Positions 2,613 through 21,267 of a stretch of 34,885 nucleotides of DNA are shown here, piece after piece; the stretch's first letter is position 1, and the number at the start of each line of letters is the position of its first letter. This stretch comes from Aminobacter ciceronei (GTDB lineage: Bacteria > Pseudomonadota > Alphaproteobacteria > Rhizobiales > Rhizobiaceae), in assembly GCF_014138625.1 (NCBI RefSeq), contig NZ_JACJHY010000047.1:1-34885 (forward strand), read 5' to 3'. Made by a program: the position numbers and the translations under genes. Below the pieces are notes generated by a model, which saw nothing but the letters and a program-made list of their open reading frames with translations, was not told where the DNA came from and made no database searches.

Positions 2613-3509
2613 TCAGGCGAAGGCGGCCGCCGTTTCGAACAGGATGGCGTGGCGGGCGGCAAGGGCTGCGACATCGGTCGAATAGCCGCCGCCGATCACC
2701 CCGCACAATGGCACGCCACGTCCGCGAAAGTGCCCAATGACGAGACGCTCGCGCCGGCGCAGCCCCTCGTCGCTCAGCGCTAGACGGCCAAGCCGATCCT
2801 CGCGATGCGGATCGACGCCGGCATTGTAGAAGACGATGTCCCATCTGCCGTGTCGTGACAGGCCGGCAAGGGCGTCGGTGAGAGCATCCAGATAGGCATC
2901 GTCGCCGGTCTTGTCGGGCAAACCGATGTCGAGGCTCGAGGCGACCTTGCGCACCGGGTAGTTCTTTTCGGCATGCATCGAGAAAGTGAACACCGAAGGA
3001 GTGCTGGCAAGGATCTCGGCGGTGCCGTCGCCCTGATGCACATCGAGATCGACAACCAGGATGTTCTCGACCTGCCCATCTTCGAGTAGCGCCAGTGCGG
3101 CGACGGCGACGTCGTTGAAGGTGCAGAAGCCGGCGCCCTGGGCGCGGCGGGCATGGTGACTGCCGCCGGCGGCGTTGCAGGCGATGCCATGGCTGAGTGC
3201 CAGCCGTGCCGAAGCCAGCGTGCCACCTGCGGCGAGCTGGGCGCGCCGCGACACGCGCTCACCGACAGGAAAGCCGATCTCGCGCTCGATGTGGTGCGGC
3301 ACCGTGCAGGTCAGCACTTGGTCGACATAGGTAGCGTCATGCGCAAGCCTGAGATAGTGCGGCGCGATCGGGTCGGCCCGGTTGAGCCCGCTGGTCAGGC
3401 CGAGGGCTTCGAGCCGTGCCATCAGCGCCGTGTATTTGCCCATCGGGAAGCGGTGGTCGGCGGCAAAGCCGGCATCGTAGTCGGGATGGCTGACGATCTG
3501 AAGCGGCAT
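2613..3509 (-). CDS. Histone deacetylase family (arginase-fold) hydrolase
   Basis: A zinc-dependent amidohydrolase of the bacterial HDAC/acetoin-utilisation-protein type, probably acting on small acetylated amines or acetyl-lysine in the cytoplasm. Family motifs are present in order: the paired histidines in AAGGSHHARRAQGAGFCTFND, the metal-binding DLDVHQGDGTAE, a second part of the pocket in YNAGVDPHREDRLGRLALS, and the late glycine-rich GVIGGGYS. The length (298 residues) is typical for bacterial class II-like members. It is divergent from the MATE exporter with about 117 bases between starts. The physiological substrate cannot be deduced from this context. Confidence 0.9.
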   Translation of the reverse strand: MPLQIVSHPDYDAGFAADHRFPMGKYTALMARLEALGLTSGLNRADPIAPHYLRLAHDATYVDQVLTCTVPHHIEREIGFPVGERVSRRAQLAAGGTLASARLALSHGIACNAAGGSHHARRAQGAGFCTFNDVAVAALALLEDGQVENILVVDLDVHQGDGTAEILASTPSVFTFSMHAEKNYPVRKVASSLDIGLPDKTGDDAYLDALTDALAGLSRHGRWDIVFYNAGVDPHREDRLGRLALSDEGLRRRERLVIGHFRGRGVPLCGVIGGGYSTDVAALAARHAILFETAAAFA

Positions 3510-14571: not shown

Positions 14572-14694
14572 ATGGACGTCCCAATTTTTCAACCATGAGC
14601 ATAATCAACGGTCGGTTCGGCGTCCATCGACCGTTTCTGGTCAAAATGCCACGCCCTCGACGTCCCAAACGACCACGGAACGCCGAAAAGTCCC

Positions 14695-14708
14695 TTGATG
14701 TGGATCAA
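14695..14708. promoter_or_regulatory. FNR/FixK-type binding site
   Basis: TTGAT-GTGG-ATCAA is an exact match to the dyad recognised by the FNR/FixK/FnrL family of low-oxygen regulators. It lies in the 248-base divergent spacer, 124 bases from the hemA start and 112 bases from the galE start. Control of hemA by FNR-type proteins is known in related alphaproteobacteria, so hemA is the likelier target. Confidence 0.7.
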
Positions 14709-14819
14709 ATTCCACTGCGACCGAATGGTCAACGTGATCTCGCCGCGAAAGTCCTATCTCGCATTTGCCGGTATTGTCGGGCTACACAGAGCGCGACGGA
14801 TGCGATGCGGAGTGTTGTC

Positions 14820-15815
14820 ATGGCGGTATTGGTAACGGGCGGTGCCGGCTACATCGGCAGCCACATGGTCTGGGAGCTGCTCGATGCGGGCGAGAAGGTC
14901 GTCGTGCTCGACCGGCTGTCGACAGGTTTTGACTGGGCGGTGGCGCCCGAGGCCACGCTGGTCAGGGGCGACGTCGCCGACAACGATCTCGTCGGTCAGT
15001 TGATCCGCGAGCATGGCGTCGACGCCATTGTCCATTTTGCAGGCTCCATCGTCGTGCCGGAATCGGTGTCCGATCCGCTCGGCTATTACGAGAACAACAC
15101 CTGCAAGACGCGCAGCCTGATCGAGACGGCGGTGCGCGAAGGGGTGAAGCATTTCATCTTCTCCTCGACCGCTGCCGTTTATGGCGCCGCTGGCATGGAG
15201 CCGGTGGTCGAGGACGCCCGACTTGCGCCGGAATCGCCTTACGGCCTGTCCAAGCTGATGAGCGAATGGATGCTGCGCGATGCGTCGGCGGCCCACCCAC
15301 TGACCTACACGGCGCTGCGCTATTTCAACGTCGCCGGCGCCGATCCCAAGGGTCGTACCGGCCAGTCGACCAAGGGTGCGACGCATCTGATCAAGGTCGC
15401 CTGCGAAACCGCACTCGGCAAGCGCGGCTCGATGCAGGTGTTCGGCGAAGACTATGCGACCCCTGACGGCACCTGCGTGCGCGACTACATCCATGTTTCC
15501 GACCTCGCCGCCGCGCACCGCCTGGCGCTCGCGCGCTTGCGCGCAGGTGGCGGCAACCTCGTCGCCAACTGTGGCTACGGCCACGGCTATTCGGTGCTCG
15601 AAGTGATCGACAGCGTGCGCCGCGTCCATGGCGCCGACTTCGCCGTCGAGATGGCTGTCCGCCGCCCGGGCGATGCGGCCTCTGTCGTTGCCAATTCGGA
15701 TCTGGCGCGCGGCGAACTCGGCTGGGCGCCAAAGCATGACGATCTCGATGCGATCGTCGGCGACGCGCTGAACTGGGAACGGCTGCTCAGCCGCAAGAAC
15801 TCTTCCGTTATATAA
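14820..15815 (+). CDS. galE: UDP-glucose 4-epimerase
   Basis: Interconverts UDP-glucose and UDP-galactose for galactose use and for envelope or exopolysaccharide synthesis. It is a short-chain dehydrogenase-type Rossmann protein: VTGGAGYIGSHMVWELL binds NAD, SSTAAVYG supplies the catalytic serine/threonine region, and Tyr141-x-x-x-Lys145 (YGLSK) is the catalytic pair. LRYFNVAGADPKGRTGQ and RDYIHVSDLAAAH are typical GalE segments. The ATG at 14820 has GGAG at 14809-14812, 7 bases upstream; the ATG at 14805 lacks one. The length of 331 residues fits the family. No sugar operon surrounds it. Confidence 0.93.
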   Translation: MAVLVTGGAGYIGSHMVWELLDAGEKVVVLDRLSTGFDWAVAPEATLVRGDVADNDLVGQLIREHGVDAIVHFAGSIVVPESVSDPLGYYENNTCKTRSLIETAVREGVKHFIFSSTAAVYGAAGMEPVVEDARLAPESPYGLSKLMSEWMLRDASAAHPLTYTALRYFNVAGADPKGRTGQSTKGATHLIKVACETALGKRGSMQVFGEDYATPDGTCVRDYIHVSDLAAAHRLALARLRAGGGNLVANCGYGHGYSVLEVIDSVRRVHGADFAVEMAVRRPGDAASVVANSDLARGELGWAPKHDDLDAIVGDALNWERLLSRKNSSVI

Positions 15816-16024
15816 GCTGCAGGTGGTGGATATCCGCCGCCCCGTCTCGATAATTGCAGCGCCAGGCGTTATGGGTGGCAAAGGGGCCTGGCCCCGCACG
15901 GTGAAGGGTTCCCGCCAGAGCCTGGTGCATCGGCCAATCCTCGGCATCGCCGATGCGCAAGAAACAGTTGGAGCGTCCTTTCCGCGTGCCAGGGGCACTG
16001 CACGACGCTCTATGGGGTGGCAGC

Positions 16025-17275
16025 ATGAAGATACTGGTTCTCGGCGCAGGTGTGGTCGGAACGGCAGCAGCCTATTACCTGGCGCGCGACGGCCATGAGG
16101 TCACCGTCGTCGAACGCCATCCGGCGGCGGCACGCGGCACGAGCTACTCCAATGCCGGCCTGGTTTCGCCGGGCGACGCCACCGCCTGGGCCTCGCCGGC
16201 GGCGCTGAAGACCTTCATCCGCTCGCTCTATACCTCCGATCTCGGCATCAAGGTCAGGCTCAGGCTCGACCCCTATTTTTATGCCTGGAGCCTGCGCTTC
16301 CTGCGCCAGTGCACGACGGCGCGGCTGCGCGCCAACAGCGAGGTCAAGCTCCGGCTCGCGCTCTATTCGCGCCAGTGCATCAACGAGATCTCCGACGAAG
16401 CCGGCATCGGCTATGACGACCGGCGCAAGGGCATCCTCTATTTCTTCCGCTCGCAGAAGAGCCTCGACGAAGGCAGCGAGAATTACCGCTTCCTCGCAAA
16501 ACACGGCCTGCCGATCGAGATCGTCGACCGCAATCGCATGGTTGAGCTGGAGCCCGGCCTGGCGGCCGCCAAGGACGGTATTGCGGGCGGCGTCTATTCG
16601 CCTGTGGATCAGACCGGCGACTCCCGCATGTTCGTCGAAAAGCTCGCCGCTTATGCCAGGGAGCGGCTGGGTGTGACGTTCAAGTTCGACACCACTGTCG
16701 AGGGCTTGGTCGTCGAGGGCGATCGCGTCGCTGGGGTGAAGACGCAAGCCGGCGTGCTCACAGCGGATGCGGTGGTCATCGCCATGGGGCCTGAGAGTGG
16801 ATTGCTCGGTCGCCGCCATGGCATCGACCTGCCCGTCTATCCGGTCAAAGGCTACACCGCGACAGTGCCGCTCGATGCTCCCGAAAAGGGACCGACGATG
16901 GGCGGCGCCGATGAGGACAACCTGATCGCCTATTCCAGGCTTGGCGATCGCCTGCGGCTGGCTGCGACCGCCGAGTTCGCCGGCTTCGATCGCAGCTACA
17001 AGCCGAGCGATTTCGCCCGCCTGTTCAAGGCCGGCCAGGAGCTTTTCCCGGGCGCCTTCAATCCGCGCAAGGCCGAGGTCTGGGCCGGTCTCCGGCCAAT
17101 GATGCCGGGCTCGGTGCCAGTCATCGGCCCGGCCCGCTACAAGGGGCTTTATCTCGACACCGGCCACGGCCATGTCGGCTGGACCATGGCCTGCGGCTCC
17201 GGCAAGTTCCTTGCCGACCTCGTGGCCGGCCGCAAGCCCGACATCGATCCACAGGGGCTGGTCTACGGGGGCTGA
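16025..17275 (+). CDS. dadA: D-amino-acid dehydrogenase (DadA-like)
   Basis: An FAD-dependent oxidoreductase that oxidises D-amino acids to 2-oxo acids and ammonia, passing electrons to the respiratory chain at the inner membrane. It begins MKILVLGAGVVGTAAAYYLARDGHEVTVVER, a textbook FAD Rossmann fingerprint ending in Glu. Later conserved parts are TSYSNAGLVSPGD, PVKGYTATVPL, and the C-terminal GLYLDTGHGHVGWTMACGSG. The length is 416 residues, typical of DadA. The start is supported by GGGGTGG at 16014-16020. Only 3 bases separate it from the racemase fusion gene, so the two are surely cotranscribed. This suggests an L-to-D-to-oxo-acid route, possibly for ornithine or another basic amino acid rather than alanine. 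Confidence 0.9.
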   Translation: MKILVLGAGVVGTAAAYYLARDGHEVTVVERHPAAARGTSYSNAGLVSPGDATAWASPAALKTFIRSLYTSDLGIKVRLRLDPYFYAWSLRFLRQCTTARLRANSEVKLRLALYSRQCINEISDEAGIGYDDRRKGILYFFRSQKSLDEGSENYRFLAKHGLPIEIVDRNRMVELEPGLAAAKDGIAGGVYSPVDQTGDSRMFVEKLAAYARERLGVTFKFDTTVEGLVVEGDRVAGVKTQAGVLTADAVVIAMGPESGLLGRRHGIDLPVYPVKGYTATVPLDAPEKGPTMGGADEDNLIAYSRLGDRLRLAATAEFAGFDRSYKPSDFARLFKAGQELFPGAFNPRKAEVWAGLRPMMPGSVPVIGPARYKGLYLDTGHGHVGWTMACGSGKFLADLVAGRKPDIDPQGLVYGG

Positions 17276-17278
17276 GTC

Positions 17279-19105
17279 ATGTCTGGACCGCAAGTCGCCA
17301 TCGATCTCGGTCGCATCGAGCGCAACGCGCGGGCAGTCGTCGAGCGCGCGAGCCAATCCGGCATCAAGGTGTTCGGTGTCACCAAGGGCAGCTGCGGCAT
17401 GCCGCAGGTGGCGCGCGCCATGCTGCGCGGCGGTGTGGCGGGGCTCGCCGAGTCGCGTTTCGAGAACATCCGCCGGTTGCGCGAAAGCGGCATCGGCTGC
17501 CCTGTAATGCTGTTGCGCAGCCCGCCGATTTCGCGCGTCGAGGAGGTGGTGCGCACTGTCGACATCAGCCTGCAGTCGGAGCTGGAGATCATCCGCGAGA
17601 TCTCGCGCATCGCCCAGCGCATCGGCCGTGTCCACGACATCATGCTGATGGTCGACCTCGGCGACCTGCGCGAAGGCATCTGGCCAAACGACCTTCTGCC
17701 GACCGTCGAGCGCGTGCTCGAACTGCCCGGCGTGCGCATTGCAGGCCTGGGCACCAACCTGACCTGCTTTGGCGCCATCATGCCGACGGAGGAGAACCTC
17801 AGCCAGCTTGTCGCCTATGCCTACAAGGTCGAGCGCCTTGCCGGCGTCAGCCTCGACTGGGTGTCGGGCGGCAATTCGTCGTCGCTGCCGCTGCTTCTGG
17901 ACAACAAGCTGCCGGCCGGCATCAACAACCTGCGCATCGGCGAGGCGATCCTGCAGGGCGGCTACGAGACCTTCCGGGAAGAGCCGTGGCGGGAGCTGGA
18001 GTTCAACGCCTTCAAGCTCACCGGCGACCTGATCGAGGTCAAGCTCAAGCCGTCGCTGCCGATCGGTGAATCCGGCTACGACGCCTTCGGCAACCAGCCG
18101 GTGTTCGTCGACGAGGGCGACAGGCTGCGCGGCATCGCCAATATCGGCCGCGAGGACACGATGATTGAGGGCCTTGTGCCGATCCATCGGGGCGTGCGGG
18201 TGCTGGGCGCGTCGAGCGACCATCTCGTGCTCGACATTACCGACGCCGAGCCGCCGCTGGTCGTCGGCGATCGCGTCAGCTTCCACATGAACTATGGCGC
18301 GCTGTTGACGGCGATGACTTCGGAATATGTCGAGAAGGCGCCGATGCACGACATCACCGACGTCACCGGCCGCCGCATGGTCTCGATCGTGGCCGACAGT
18401 GCTGCCGGGCCACTGCTGGCAAGACAGTCTGTTGGTACGCGGCTCGAACAGATGCAGTTCGACGTCATCGAGATCGCCGATGCCGAGCATCCGCCGGCCG
18501 GCCTCATCAGGTTGCACGCCGGTGCTGACAGGCATGTGGCGTCGAAGGCGCTGGCAACAGCCGCCGAGGCGACACATTCCCTGGGACTGATCTGGATCGA
18601 TTCCATTGCCGCGCTGATGCCGGAGGGCGAGGAGGGTGTCGAGGCGCCGGAGCGCTCGGTGCTGGCGCGGCTGCTCGGCCTCGACCACAAGCCCGGCGCG
18701 CTGCAGCCGCAGCTGTCGCCCGAAAATGTCGTGCTCGTCGGGCTGCGCGAGGCCGATCCGGCGGAGGTGCGCATCCTCAAGGATTCGCGCGTCACCGCCT
18801 TCACCATGGCAGAGGTCGACGGCTCCGGCATGCGCGAGGTGATGCGCGAGGCAATCCGCATCGCCTCATCGGGAACCGTCGGTTTCCACGTCAGCTATTC
18901 CCCCACGGCCACCGAAATTCCCGGCTGGGCGAGTGGCTCCGGCGGCATGACCGTGCGCGAGACGCACCAGGCGATGGAGGCGATAGCGCTGTCCGGCGGC
19001 ATGCTGTCGATGGACGTTTCGGGATTGGCCGCGGAGACGGAGCCGCGCGTCGCCACCGAAGCGGTCAACTTCGTCATGTCCGCCTTTGGCAAGAGGATCC
19101 TCTGA
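17279..19105 (+). CDS. Ornithine-racemase-like domain fused to a degenerate arginase domain
   Basis: A 608-residue two-domain protein. Residues 1 to about 352 match PLP fold-III racemases of the Orr type: Lys36 in VFGVTKGSCG for the Schiff base, LMVDLGDLREGIWPND, GLGTNLTCFGAIMPTEEN, SGGNSSSLPLL, INNLRIGEAILQGG, KPSLPIGESGYDAFG and RVLGASSDHLVLD. Residues about 367-608 align by eye with the ureohydrolase (arginase/agmatinase) family: GLIWIDS at 438-444, ENVVLVGLREADPAEVRIL, SGGMTVRETHQAMEAI, and the ending FGKRIL. The metal ligands are lost: the DxHxD motif reads DSIAA (Asp441 retained), the GGDHS region reads AGADRH, and the DxD region reads HVSYSP. The racemase half is probably active; the arginase half is probably a ligand-binding or structural domain. 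It is cotranscribed with dadA and abuts the convergent permease gene with no spacer. Confidence 0.85.
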   Translation: MSGPQVAIDLGRIERNARAVVERASQSGIKVFGVTKGSCGMPQVARAMLRGGVAGLAESRFENIRRLRESGIGCPVMLLRSPPISRVEEVVRTVDISLQSELEIIREISRIAQRIGRVHDIMLMVDLGDLREGIWPNDLLPTVERVLELPGVRIAGLGTNLTCFGAIMPTEENLSQLVAYAYKVERLAGVSLDWVSGGNSSSLPLLLDNKLPAGINNLRIGEAILQGGYETFREEPWRELEFNAFKLTGDLIEVKLKPSLPIGESGYDAFGNQPVFVDEGDRLRGIANIGREDTMIEGLVPIHRGVRVLGASSDHLVLDITDAEPPLVVGDRVSFHMNYGALLTAMTSEYVEKAPMHDITDVTGRRMVSIVADSAAGPLLARQSVGTRLEQMQFDVIEIADAEHPPAGLIRLHAGADRHVASKALATAAEATHSLGLIWIDSIAALMPEGEEGVEAPERSVLARLLGLDHKPGALQPQLSPENVVLVGLREADPAEVRILKDSRVTAFTMAEVDGSGMREVMREAIRIASSGTVGFHVSYSPTATEIPGWASGSGGMTVRETHQAMEAIALSGGMLSMDVSGLAAETEPRVATEAVNFVMSAFGKRIL

Positions 19106-19759
19106 TCAGCGTCGGCGCGCGCTCTGCTTGGTTTCGTAGATGTACTGAAAGGCGATGATCGCCGCTGCGATGACGAGATAAAAGACCGACACCACCAGCA
19201 ACACCTCGATGGCCTTGTAGGTCTCGGAGATGATGACGGTCGAGGCCGCCGTCAGCTCGTCTATGGCGACGAGGCTGGCGAGCGAGCTGCCCTTGACCAT
19301 CTGGATGGCATTGGAAAACAGCGACGGTGCCGCCAGCCTGTAGGCCTGCGGGATCATCACCTTCCAATAGGTCGCAAATGGCCTAAGGCCGAGCGCCTTG
19401 GCGGCGTCGAGCTGGCCTGGGGGAATGCTCTCGAAGCCGGAGCGCAGGAATTCGAGATTGTAGGCGGTCGAGGCGAAGATCAGGCCGATCAACGCCGACG
19501 GCACCGGCTCGAGATAGATGCCGAGGCGAGGCAGGCCATAATAGAGCGCAAACAGCAATGCCAGAACGGGAGCCGCGCGGGCAAAGAAACTGTAGCCGAT
19601 GATGACGCGGTGAAACGCGCCCTTGGGCCGCTGCATGTAGATGGCCAGCGGCAGTGCAAGGATGTTGGAGACAACGATGACGACCACCGAGATGAACAGC
19701 GTCATCGCCAGCCCGTCGAACAGCATCTGCTGGTAGGTCGGGTCGAGCAGGATGTTCAT
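19106..19759 (-). CDS. Polar amino acid ABC transporter permease
   Basis: A 217-residue inner-membrane permease of the HisMQ/GlnP type with about five hydrophobic helices. The cytoplasmic EAA loop that docks the ATPase is visible in SGFESIPPGQLDAAKALGLRPFATYWKVMIPQA. It starts within the stop codon of the second permease (4-base ATGA overlap) and ends against the stop of the racemase fusion gene on the other strand. It is the last gene of a three-gene operon (binding protein, permease, permease). No ATPase gene follows in the operon, which is unusual for this family. Confidence 0.9.
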   Translation of the reverse strand: MNILLDPTYQQMLFDGLAMTLFISVVVIVVSNILALPLAIYMQRPKGAFHRVIIGYSFFARAAPVLALLFALYYGLPRLGIYLEPVPSALIGLIFASTAYNLEFLRSGFESIPPGQLDAAKALGLRPFATYWKVMIPQAYRLAAPSLFSNAIQMVKGSSLASLVAIDELTAASTVIISETYKAIEVLLVVSVFYLVIAAAIIAFQYIYETKQSARRR

Positions 19760-20400
19760 CGCGCCACCGCTTGCTTGGGCTTGCGCTCGTTGAAGACGAG
19801 CAGCGGCGTGACGATGAGGATGTAGAGGCCGACGGCGAGCGTCAGGAAGGTAAAAGGTGCGTTGGTGGCGGCGATGCCCTGCTTGGTGACGTAGAGAATC
19901 TCGCTGACCGACACCGCCGAGGCGATCGACATGCGCTTGACCGTGCCGATGGCGTAGGTGATCCAGCCCTTGCGTGCCAATGGCAGGATCTGCGGGATCA
20001 GCACCCTAAGGAACACGACCCGCTTGGGCAGGCCGAGCGCGAGGCCCGCCTCATACTGGCCGAATGGCACGGCCTTCAACGCGCCCTTGAATACCTGATA
20101 GTCGAAGGCGATGCCGACGAGCGTGAAGGCGATGATCGTCGAGCCGATCGGGCCGAAGTCGATGCCGACCTGCGGCCCGCCGAAGAAGAACAGGAACAGC
20201 ACCACGAGTTCCGGCACCGAGCGGAAGAAGGCGCTGAACGCCTCGATACCGTTCCGGAGCCAGGATTTTTCGCGGCCGTAGTGAACGAGGGACAACAACA
20301 GGCCGAAGACTGCCGACAGGCTGAAGACCACTGCCGACAGCCCGATGGTGAGGGCCGCCGCAACCAACAGCCGCGGCAGCCAGGCAAGTGCGATTTCCAT
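19756..20400 (-). CDS. Polar amino acid ABC transporter permease
   Basis: A second HisMQ-type permease of 214 residues that should form a heterodimer with the product of 19106-19759. Membrane segments begin at LLVAAALTIGLSAVVFSLSAVFGLLLSLV. The region FRSVPELVVLFLFFFGGPQVG is typical of the family, and the EAA loop is GALKAVPFGQYEAGLALGLPKRVVFLRVLIPQI. It lies 27 bases after the binding protein gene and overlaps the next permease by 4 bases. Confidence 0.9.
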   Translation of the reverse strand: MEIALAWLPRLLVAAALTIGLSAVVFSLSAVFGLLLSLVHYGREKSWLRNGIEAFSAFFRSVPELVVLFLFFFGGPQVGIDFGPIGSTIIAFTLVGIAFDYQVFKGALKAVPFGQYEAGLALGLPKRVVFLRVLIPQILPLARKGWITYAIGTVKRMSIASAVSVSEILYVTKQGIAATNAPFTFLTLAVGLYILIVTPLLVFNERKPKQAVAR

Positions 20401-20427
20401 GTCCCGCGCCCCTCGCGGCAGCCCTGC

Positions 20428-21231
20428 TTACTGAGCCTTCGACCAGTCGATGGAGGCGCCGAACCACTTGTCGGCCAGGCCCTGCAGGGTGCCGTCCTTG
20501 CGCCAGGTCTCGAACTGGGCGTCGATGGCGTCGGCCAGCGGCTTGTTCTTGTTGCTGACGGCAACGCTCTGGGTGATGGTCGACAACAGGTCGTCGAGGG
20601 TAACAGTGCCGGTCAGCTTGCCCGATTTGGCGAGGTATTTCGGACCGAGGAAGTCGTGGGCGGCAAAATCGATGCGGCGGTTCTCGAGGTCGAGGAACAG
20701 CTCGGTGGCGCCGGGATACTCACGGCTCTTGGTGACGCAATCGGCCGGAAGCTTCTCCTTGGCGACCTTCTGGAAGGCGCCGCCGCGCACCGCGCCCATT
20801 GTCTTGCCGCAGACATCCTTCCAGTTGGCGACGTCGGTGTCAGCCTCGCGGCGGGTGATGGCAGCACCGTTGACGATGTAGGGCGACAGCAGGAAGAAGT
20901 CCTTCGAAGCCAGGCGCTCCGGTGTGCGGGTCACGCCCGAGGCGATCAGGTCGAAGCGGCCTGCGGTGAGGCCCGGCAACAGCCCGGCGAAGTCGAGCTT
21001 CTCGAACTTGGCGGTCAGGCCGAGCTGCTTGGCGACGAGATTGACGACGTCGATGTCGAAGCCTTCAAGCTCGCCCGCAGCATTGGTCATGCTGAAGGGC
21101 GGGGCCGAGCCTGACGTGCCGACGGTGATGGTATCAGGTGCAACCAGGGCGGCCTTGTAGTCCTGTGCACTTGCTGCGCTCACGCCGAAAATCGCAATGA
21201 GGGCCAGCAGGGCTGTCCGCGCAATTCTCAT
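20428..21231 (-). CDS. Periplasmic amino acid-binding protein (SBP family 3)
   Basis: A substrate-binding protein of 267 residues for the two adjoining permeases. A Sec signal peptide (MRIARTALLALIAIFGVSAASA) ends at AQDYK. Family 3 motifs follow: TVGTSGSAPPFSMTNAAGELEGFDIDVVNLVAKQLG, LTAGRFDLIASGVTRTPERL and the hinge region around LLSPYIVNG. The ATG at 21231 has GGAG 5 bases upstream; a GTG at 21237 would place the binding site against the start. The ligand is not readable. The convergent dadA and racemase genes suggest a basic or D-amino acid, but that is inference. The promoter region at 21268-21301 lies just upstream. Confidence 0.92.
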   Translation of the reverse strand: MRIARTALLALIAIFGVSAASAQDYKAALVAPDTITVGTSGSAPPFSMTNAAGELEGFDIDVVNLVAKQLGLTAKFEKLDFAGLLPGLTAGRFDLIASGVTRTPERLASKDFFLLSPYIVNGAAITRREADTDVANWKDVCGKTMGAVRGGAFQKVAKEKLPADCVTKSREYPGATELFLDLENRRIDFAAHDFLGPKYLAKSGKLTGTVTLDDLLSTITQSVAVSNKNKPLADAIDAQFETWRKDGTLQGLADKWFGASIDWSKAQ

Positions 21232-21267
21232 GATCACTCCTTTGATGGGCTGCTTGAAAACAGAATG

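Follow-up and report, generated by a model that had tools for sequence, protein, structure and literature searches.

A racemase fused to a metal-less pseudo-arginase in Aminobacter ciceronei and its relatives: a possible arginine racemase held on an arginase scaffold

Why would bacteria keep an arginase that has lost its metal ligands, and keep it joined to an amino acid racemase? The question is raised by one gene in a stretch of 34,885 nucleotides from Aminobacter ciceronei (contig NZ_JACJHY010000047.1; this whole stretch is called the window below), in which positions 17279-19105 of the plus strand form a single unbroken open reading frame of 608 amino acids, from ATG to TGA. An original prediction had read the product as an ornithine-racemase-type (Orr) enzyme fused to a pseudo-arginase, and this reading was borne out by the frame itself, by Pfam and NCBIfam matches and by the predicted structure. 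We consider, with a probability of roughly 0.55, that the protein is an arginine racemase which would feed an adjacent dehydrogenase and would be carried on a dead arginase kept as an oligomerization scaffold. The fusion would racemize L-arginine to D-arginine, perhaps acting more broadly on basic amino acids, and the adjacent D-amino-acid dehydrogenase would take D-arginine to 2-ketoarginine; complete operons, and perhaps Aminobacter as well, would continue through 4-guanidinobutyraldehyde and 4-guanidinobutyrate to 4-aminobutyrate (GABA) and urea. The C-terminal half, a former arginase, would bind neither a metal cluster nor a substrate in its old pocket; it retains the arginase scaffold and assembly residues and would hold the racemase in a higher-order oligomer, most likely an arginase-like trimer or hexamer, whose interface may also respond to arginine.

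A racemase and a pseudo-arginase in one protein

The protein is a racemase joined to a metal-less pseudo-arginase. Its N-terminal domain (residues 1-353; 17279..18337, plus strand, like all residues of the fusion given below) is an Orr-type fold-III pyridoxal 5'-phosphate (PLP) racemase domain according to Pfam Ala_racemase_N (residues 8-224, E 5.8e-29), NCBIfam racem_Orr (NF040742; residues 4-353, model positions 2-349 of 351, 408 bits, below the cut-off of 480) and residue conservation. Lys36, Asp129, Arg131, Asn160, Cys163, Ser196, Arg219, Asp314 and His315 are each shared by 26 or more of the 27 sequences compared (11 fusions and 16 single-domain relatives), and by this alignment the active-site residues of the racemase family are intact in the fusion. 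Lys36 lies in the motif VTKGSCG (17384..17386) and is presumably, by analogy with alanine racemase, the lysine that forms the Schiff base with PLP.

A linker (residues 354-365; 18338..18373) leads to the pseudo-arginase domain (residues 366-608; 18374..19102). The profile search placed this half in the arginase family: PF00491 matched residues 350-601 with its cut-off passed (E 5.1e-17 to 1e-16; profile positions 47-276 of 280), and the fusion scored 68 bits against TIGR01229 (arginase), vs a cut-off of 228. The best sequence match among solved structures was B. caldovelox arginase (1cev, E 3e-18, residues 408-607), which also came first (E 1.8e-27) with a profile built from 12 C-terminal domains. 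The AlphaFold2 model of residues 350-608 (predicted local distance difference test, pLDDT, 83.7; predicted template modelling score, pTM, 0.85) has an arginase fold, and all 50 Foldseek matches listed for it were arginases. The full-length model (pLDDT 73, pTM 0.48) matched arginases and fold-III PLP enzymes, with pLDDT <50 at residues 349-363; at this pTM, the arrangement of the two domains was not drawn from it. The earlier statement that this half aligns with arginases along its whole length was slightly generous: in an alignment with five ligand-bearing arginases it lacks the GASRRGVDMGPSA loop, ~30 residues ahead of GGDH, as well as the SGNIHGMP substrate-loop residues.

Sequencing or assembly error was ruled out as the source of the fusion, because 70 of 83 loci, in many records, are full-length fusions. 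The 83 comprise the best 80 of 125 loci from a scan of genome contigs with the C-terminal domain, plus three plasmid loci. Among the other 13, L113, L117 and L137 lie at contig ends, matches in L118 and L123 start at residue 3, L141 is partial, and L140 and L142-L145 are ordinary stand-alone arginases with all ligands; L090 and L112, from two Mesorhizobium assemblies, carry the fusion gene with an apparent frame change in its N-terminal part. On one contig of Mesorhizobium camelthorni (NZ_JAAKZF010000015.1), L118 is a near-full fusion without a dehydrogenase directly upstream, and ~13 kb away L141 is a second, partial copy of the C-terminal domain, possibly from duplication or rearrangement.

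The fusion and its ligand loss are evolutionarily stable, as this survey of homologues established. Named genera with the fusion are Aminobacter, Mesorhizobium, Pseudaminobacter, Aestuariivirga, Taklimakanibacter, Labrys, Shinella and Rhizobium. For residue counts, 74 sequences were aligned (the 70 fusions, L005, L011, L045 and the window protein), 66 of them from Hyphomicrobiales records and 8 without an order lookup, with 47 from Mesorhizobium by record; at 93% identity, 23 genome-contig rows remained besides the window. Nine fusions were found among 397 genomes of the order, 72 of which had a match and the best 30 loci of which were examined. Among the weaker matches, the long open frame of G144 alone was examined as a candidate fusion, and it proved to be an ordinary arginase with its ligands and no racemase half. 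The fusion occurred in 4 of 14 matching genomes of 398 sampled from the phylum, and in the window's own genome only among 14 matching of 385 from the class, the rest being single-domain by match extent. Among 101 close relatives, six of ten same-genus genomes (the window's own included) carry it, and there is also one full-length divergent copy (G040) and one copy split over contig ends (G052).

The tree figures bearing on the origin of the fusion were 83/69 and 53/11 for two N-domain trees (20 fusions with 17 singles, and 13 with 23) and 100/98 for the C-domain tree (13 fusions with 22 of the 35 stand-alone arginases described below), the last having long branches; they allow a single origin. 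The plasmid locus L035 (NZ_CP084753.1) is labelled Roseateles sp. XES5 (Betaproteobacteria, UNVERIFIED_ORG), and its neighbour proteins share 91-97% identity with their counterparts in the Shinella operon; the betaproteobacterial label is probably wrong.

Loss of the metal ligands under purifying selection

The former metal site was compared with 1cev, with the five ligand-bearing arginases and with 35 stand-alone enzymes (43 less eight that failed a motif filter; two of the 35 are identical), and intact ligands were ruled out in each comparison. GGDHS reads GADRH at residues 415-419, DAHxD reads DSIAA at 441-445 and the DxD stretch reads SYSPT. Arg418 (18530..18532) replaces the ligand His (human H101, 1cev H99), with Arg in 70, His in 3 and Lys in 1 of the 74 sequences; Ile443 and Ala445 (18605..18613) stand for human H126 and D128, where the original residue is found in 1 and 0 of 74; and Ser541-Thr543 (18899..18907) stand for D232, where none of the 74 has Asp, and D234, where 10 have it, the placement of the latter being alignment-dependent (Thr543 against the five ligand-bearing arginases, a gap with the 35 stand-alone enzymes). 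Only Asp441 (18599..18601; human D124, 1cev D122) is retained, in 74 of 74. Five of the six manganese ligands are lost in the window protein; the original prediction, which had described nearly all ligands as replaced, was right for GGDHS, DxD and most of DAHxD and had overlooked Asp441.

Substrate residues have gone with the metal. Glu458 (18650..18652; Glu in 67/74) occupies the place of catalytic human H141, and Gly582 (19022..19024; Glu in 0/74) that of the guanidinium-binding Glu (human E277, 1cev E271). Of the 74 fusions, none keeps the equivalent of N130, H141 or E277, and two keep that of S137. The active-site roles of these human residues, with His141 as proton shuttle and Glu277 as guanidinium binder, are those of the arginase literature. 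Arg560-Glu561 had been tried as the equivalent of Glu277 and was rejected, as counting along 1cev equates this pair with human R255-E256 and Glu277 with Gly582.

These losses bear on one role offered by the original prediction, a sensor of arginine or ornithine, if the ligand were to sit where arginase held its substrate. In arginase, Glu186 and Asp183 bind the amino group of the substrate, and their equivalents are largely kept (72/74 and 56/74), which speaks for a sensor of this kind. Because no fusion among the 74 retains the equivalent of Glu277, Asn130 or His141 (with Ser137 surviving in two) and the pocket has in most sequences gained Arg418 (70/74) and Glu458 (67/74), a sensor in the old pocket is nevertheless improbable, and it is the least likely of the roles considered here for this half. 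Another proposed role, assembly, fits the interface positions described below, and the dead domain looks more like a retained assembly module, possibly gated by arginine, than like a pocket sensor.

The C-terminal half is under purifying selection. Its ratio of nonsynonymous to synonymous substitution rates (dN/dS) was 0.114 in Aminobacter (5 sequences), 0.116 in Mesorhizobium (9), 0.161 in Shinella/Rhizobium (8) and 0.114 in Labrys (3), and that of the racemase half was 0.075, 0.101, 0.079 and 0.037, respectively. A decaying relic is ruled out by C-domain values of 0.11-0.16, and reuse rather than decay, as had been suggested, is upheld. His at position 418 survives only in L125, L127 and L128, all from the Aestuariivirga/Taklimakanibacter branch, which splits first in the main fusion clade (in a tree rooted by other sequences); this suggests that the ligands were lost stepwise.

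Gene neighbourhood and the likely substrate

A D-amino-acid dehydrogenase gene of the DadA/DauA type (15953..17275, plus strand; NCBIfam PRK00711, 460 bits, cut-off 383; likely start at codon 25, position 16025) ends 3 bases upstream of the fusion in the window. Of the 75 loci whose sequence reaches 1.4 kb or more upstream of the fusion, all but L118, L135 and the partial L141 have such a gene immediately before it (72 of 75), and in 51 of the 72 the distance to the fusion start is 4-7 bases, stop codon included. Where 7 kb or more of upstream sequence is available (69 loci), 14 have a match to the 5-guanidino-2-oxopentanoate (2-ketoarginine) decarboxylase, 13 an aldehyde dehydrogenase, 12 an agmatinase-type ureohydrolase and 10 a Rid protein. 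The loci with arginine-pathway genes belong to the Aestuariivirga/Taklimakanibacter, Labrys, Shinella/Rhizobium and L122 branches. In Shinella the row reads agmatinase-type ureohydrolase, 5-guanidino-2-oxopentanoate decarboxylase (737 bits, cut-off 500), aldehyde dehydrogenase, ATP-grasp protein, C45 hydrolase, D-amino-acid dehydrogenase, fusion and Rid. The contig-split G052 copy is adjoined by agmatinase-type, decarboxylase and dehydrogenase genes, and in G154, which with G040 makes up the most divergent pair, an agmatinase-type gene with intact ligands (382 bits, cut-off 302) ends two bases before the fusion.

This gene set follows the order of an arginine racemase/dehydrogenase pathway in which L-arginine is racemized, D-arginine oxidized, 2-ketoarginine decarboxylated and urea released from 4-guanidinobutyrate. 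Since the dehydrogenase, the 2-ketoarginine decarboxylase and further pathway genes lie near several relatives of the fusion, its substrate is likely L-arginine. Gene rows occur on several branches, and L121, L122 and G052, kin to the Aminobacter-Mesorhizobium group, keep parts of the row, so arginine was probably the ancestral substrate. With 51 bits, the Rid protein of the operon falls short of the TIGR00004 cut-off of 106. One report shows that D-arginine dehydrogenase (DauA) releases iminoarginine, which Rid2 and Rid3 deaminate and RidA and Rid1 do not (PMC5619798).

The label of ornithine racemase in the original prediction therefore holds for the fold and residues of the family, and the substrate is where we depart from it, as the neighbours of the relatives point to L-arginine. 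It is conceivable, if rather doubtful, that the enzyme acts on ornithine or lysine and that the fusion arose by joining an ornithine-making arginase to an ornithine racemase: ornithine racemase is the closest named family, a single-domain Ilyobacter relative is annotated as such, and an active arginase yields ornithine. Repeated linkage to the 2-ketoarginine decarboxylase and the agmatinase-type gene, both enzymes of guanidino compounds, speaks for arginine instead. Co-occurrence of the decarboxylase with the fusion was discarded as evidence: a match (E 1e-120 or better) was found in 8 of 9 fusion genomes vs 38 of 388 others among the 397 of the order, but the decarboxylase is also present in genomes of these groups that lack the fusion, so that ancestry explains much of the association.

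Downstream of the fusion, a convergent amino-acid ATP-binding cassette (ABC) transporter of two permeases and a binding protein (19106..21237, minus strand; BPD_transp_1, SBP_bac_3) possibly serves basic-amino-acid uptake, as its binding protein is nearest the Lys/Arg/Orn subfamily, below the cut-off (120 of 256 bits). It stands beside the fusion in L066, L067 and L124, and not in L068.

Several further genes were noted. Between the aldehyde dehydrogenase and the D-amino-acid dehydrogenase of a Shinella plasmid lie two conserved genes (L034:5214-7691), one for an ATP-grasp 'biotin carboxylase' (PRK06524, 766 bits against a cut-off of 684), the other for a C45 autoproteolytic hydrolase. Both were counted in 13 of the 69 loci (L125-L134, L136 and L138 in part), and in the window's own genome the best match to the ATP-grasp gene is weak (27%, E 4e-4). 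The gene next upstream of the dehydrogenase codes for a GalE-like epimerase both in the window (14595-15815, plus strand; assigned by eye from the translation) and in Mesorhizobium amorphae (L079:6477-7610; NCBIfam galE). The window also encodes a histone-deacetylase-family protein (2613-3509, minus strand; PF00850, E 1e-55), a family distantly related to the arginase fold. On a Phaeobacter plasmid (L197:1871-4122), the gene of a single-domain Orr-like racemase and the end of a DUF1611 gene overlap, and the same two names occur under matches in Vibrio and Ruegeria plasmids, as a separate conserved unit.

Role of the dead half and meaning of the fusion

Positions tied to subunit assembly in arginases have been retained. 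The equivalents of human D204, R255, E256 and E262, namely Asp514 (18818..18820), Arg560-Glu561 (18956..18961) and Glu567 (18977..18979), are unchanged in 74/74 fusions and 35/35 stand-alone arginases, and they are invariant in the 24-row reduced alignment as well. At 64 positions, 95% or more of the stand-alone enzymes agree; those that the fusions share in 90% or more of rows comprise 4 of the 4 interface positions, 2 of the 10 in the active site and 15 of the 50 others; the hypergeometric value for interface retention, 0.009, or 0.015 counted from residue 408 onward, comes from a post hoc test, with positions picked after the data had been seen and with related rather than independent sequences. 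Preferential retention of the interface is for these reasons suggestive.

Assembly roles for these positions come from work on other arginases. Arg308 pairs with Glu262, and in rat also with Asp204 of the next subunit; replacement of Arg308 by Ala yields monomers; and the B. caldovelox arginase lacks Arg308 and has L-arginine bound in that interface (PMC7925462). Titles cited in PMC11271267 name Glu256 and Asp204 for the oligomeric structure and cooperativity of human arginase, and an allosteric site in B. caldovelox arginase that allows activation by arginine. The fusion ends in FGKRIL, and the R308 column falls at about Ile607, which is Ile in 74/74; Lys605 (74/74) and Arg606 (62/74, Thr in 12) stand beside it.

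Asp514 and Glu567, kept throughout, together with the missing arginine and the bound L-arginine of the B. caldovelox enzyme, would suit a feed-forward switch in which L-arginine at the inter-subunit site controls assembly or activity of the racemase. A purely structural interface would retain the same residues, however, and Lys605 or Arg606 could fill the site, so we hold such a switch to be tentative. In a stronger form, the idea is of an arginine-gated assembly switch: with the catalytic site dismantled and with the inter-subunit site kept that binds L-arginine in the B. caldovelox enzyme, the substrate itself would bring the racemase together and turn it on through the fused pseudoenzyme. 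In this form the idea is if anything slightly more speculative.

The dead domain might instead hetero-oligomerize with an active agmatinase-type ureohydrolase of the operon, or with the dehydrogenase, as MetCb of metformin hydrolase does with MetCa (PMC11271267). The agmatinase-type gene is linked in 12 of 69 loci, lies beside the G052 copy and is adjacent in G154, and the window's own genome (G000) has ten matches to the agmatinase-type query. By contrast, the fusion has no agmatinase-type gene next to it in Aminobacter or at most Mesorhizobium loci, and the linked enzymes are agmatinase-like whereas the C-terminal domain is arginase-like. Docking is therefore a weaker alternative to the scaffold and rather unlikely.

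Several observations weigh against an arginine racemase on an assembly scaffold, besides the post hoc nature of the interface test. On the side of the dead half, the interface role of R255 comes from general background on arginases, the interface residues may be kept for intrachain reasons, the C-terminal domain changes faster than the racemase (45% vs 76% identity for L034), and the C-terminal half of G040 is barely recognizable (Pfam 5e-6, with no NCBIfam arginase model at 1e-8). On the side of the substrate, the dehydrogenase is the sole pathway gene adjoining the fusion in Aminobacter and at most Mesorhizobium loci, and enzymes of the DadA type accept many D-amino acids. The best decarboxylase match of the window's own genome (49%) is on another contig and is found also in genus-mates without the fusion, and G040 has no arginine genes directly beside its fusion, with an edge-cut agmatinase-type match (39%) ~7 kb off. 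As for the racemase half, the missed racem_Orr cut-off counts here too, and no conserved tyrosine was found in the stretch 258-276 of the 27 aligned sequences, where the second catalytic base of alanine racemase, a tyrosine, would be expected.

A Fusobacteriaceae protein that joins a PLP-dependent decarboxylase to an arginase is reportedly divergent in its arginase-domain sequence, with function lost in some species. By its title, this ornithine decarboxylase/arginase (Mothersole 2022) resembles the fusion in combining a PLP enzyme with an arginase, and differs from it in being a decarboxylase of another lineage. With its scaffold intact, its ligands lost and its sequence under selection, the C-terminal half described here is a metal-less arginase-family pseudoenzyme. 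MetCb of the metformin hydrolase of Aminobacter NyZ550, from the same genus, is another; it has five of six metal ligands mutated and serves as binding partner of MetCa (PMC11271267), being a stand-alone subunit with an active ureohydrolase partner, unlike a domain fused to a PLP enzyme. A Trypanosoma brucei arginase-like protein (Hai 2015, by its title) likewise has the arginase scaffold without the Mn cluster and is stand-alone and eukaryotic, whereas the C-terminal half is fused and bacterial. Bacterial arginase RocF (1cev, 6nbk, 2ef5; TIGR01229) shares with the fusion the fold, the Asp124 equivalent and the four interface-matching residues; the fusion lacks five of the six ligands and most substrate residues, is shortened and stands behind a racemase.

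The Orr family (NF040742) is matched nearly end to end, with shared active-site residues and 38-44% identity to ten single-domain relatives in the phylum sample; the fusion differs in its score below the cut-off, in its C-terminal pseudo-arginase and in the operons of its relatives, which point to arginine. The full gene row of the arginine racemase/D-arginine dehydrogenase pathway is common to Shinella and the Roseateles-labelled plasmid, except that the racemase here bears a dead arginase and that the window keeps only the adjacent dehydrogenase. Pseudo-arginases are thus already known, and no description of a racemase-arginase fusion was found in the open-licence literature. The earlier statement that no enzyme of this architecture had been described stands for the fusion itself within that literature, and it has to be read beside the degenerate ornithine decarboxylase/arginase already in print, to judge by the title.

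The gene occurs in dozens of rhizobial and related genomes, and its products are labelled 'alanine racemase' in annotated plasmid records. The operons of the relatives offer a testable name, arginine racemase, an activity rarely mentioned in the literature searched, where the phrase occurs in seven papers. The fusion is a clear case of active-site loss in which the positions tied to assembly have been kept. Furthermore, it raises the question of whether the inter-subunit arginine site of a bacterial arginase could serve on its own as a regulatory module.

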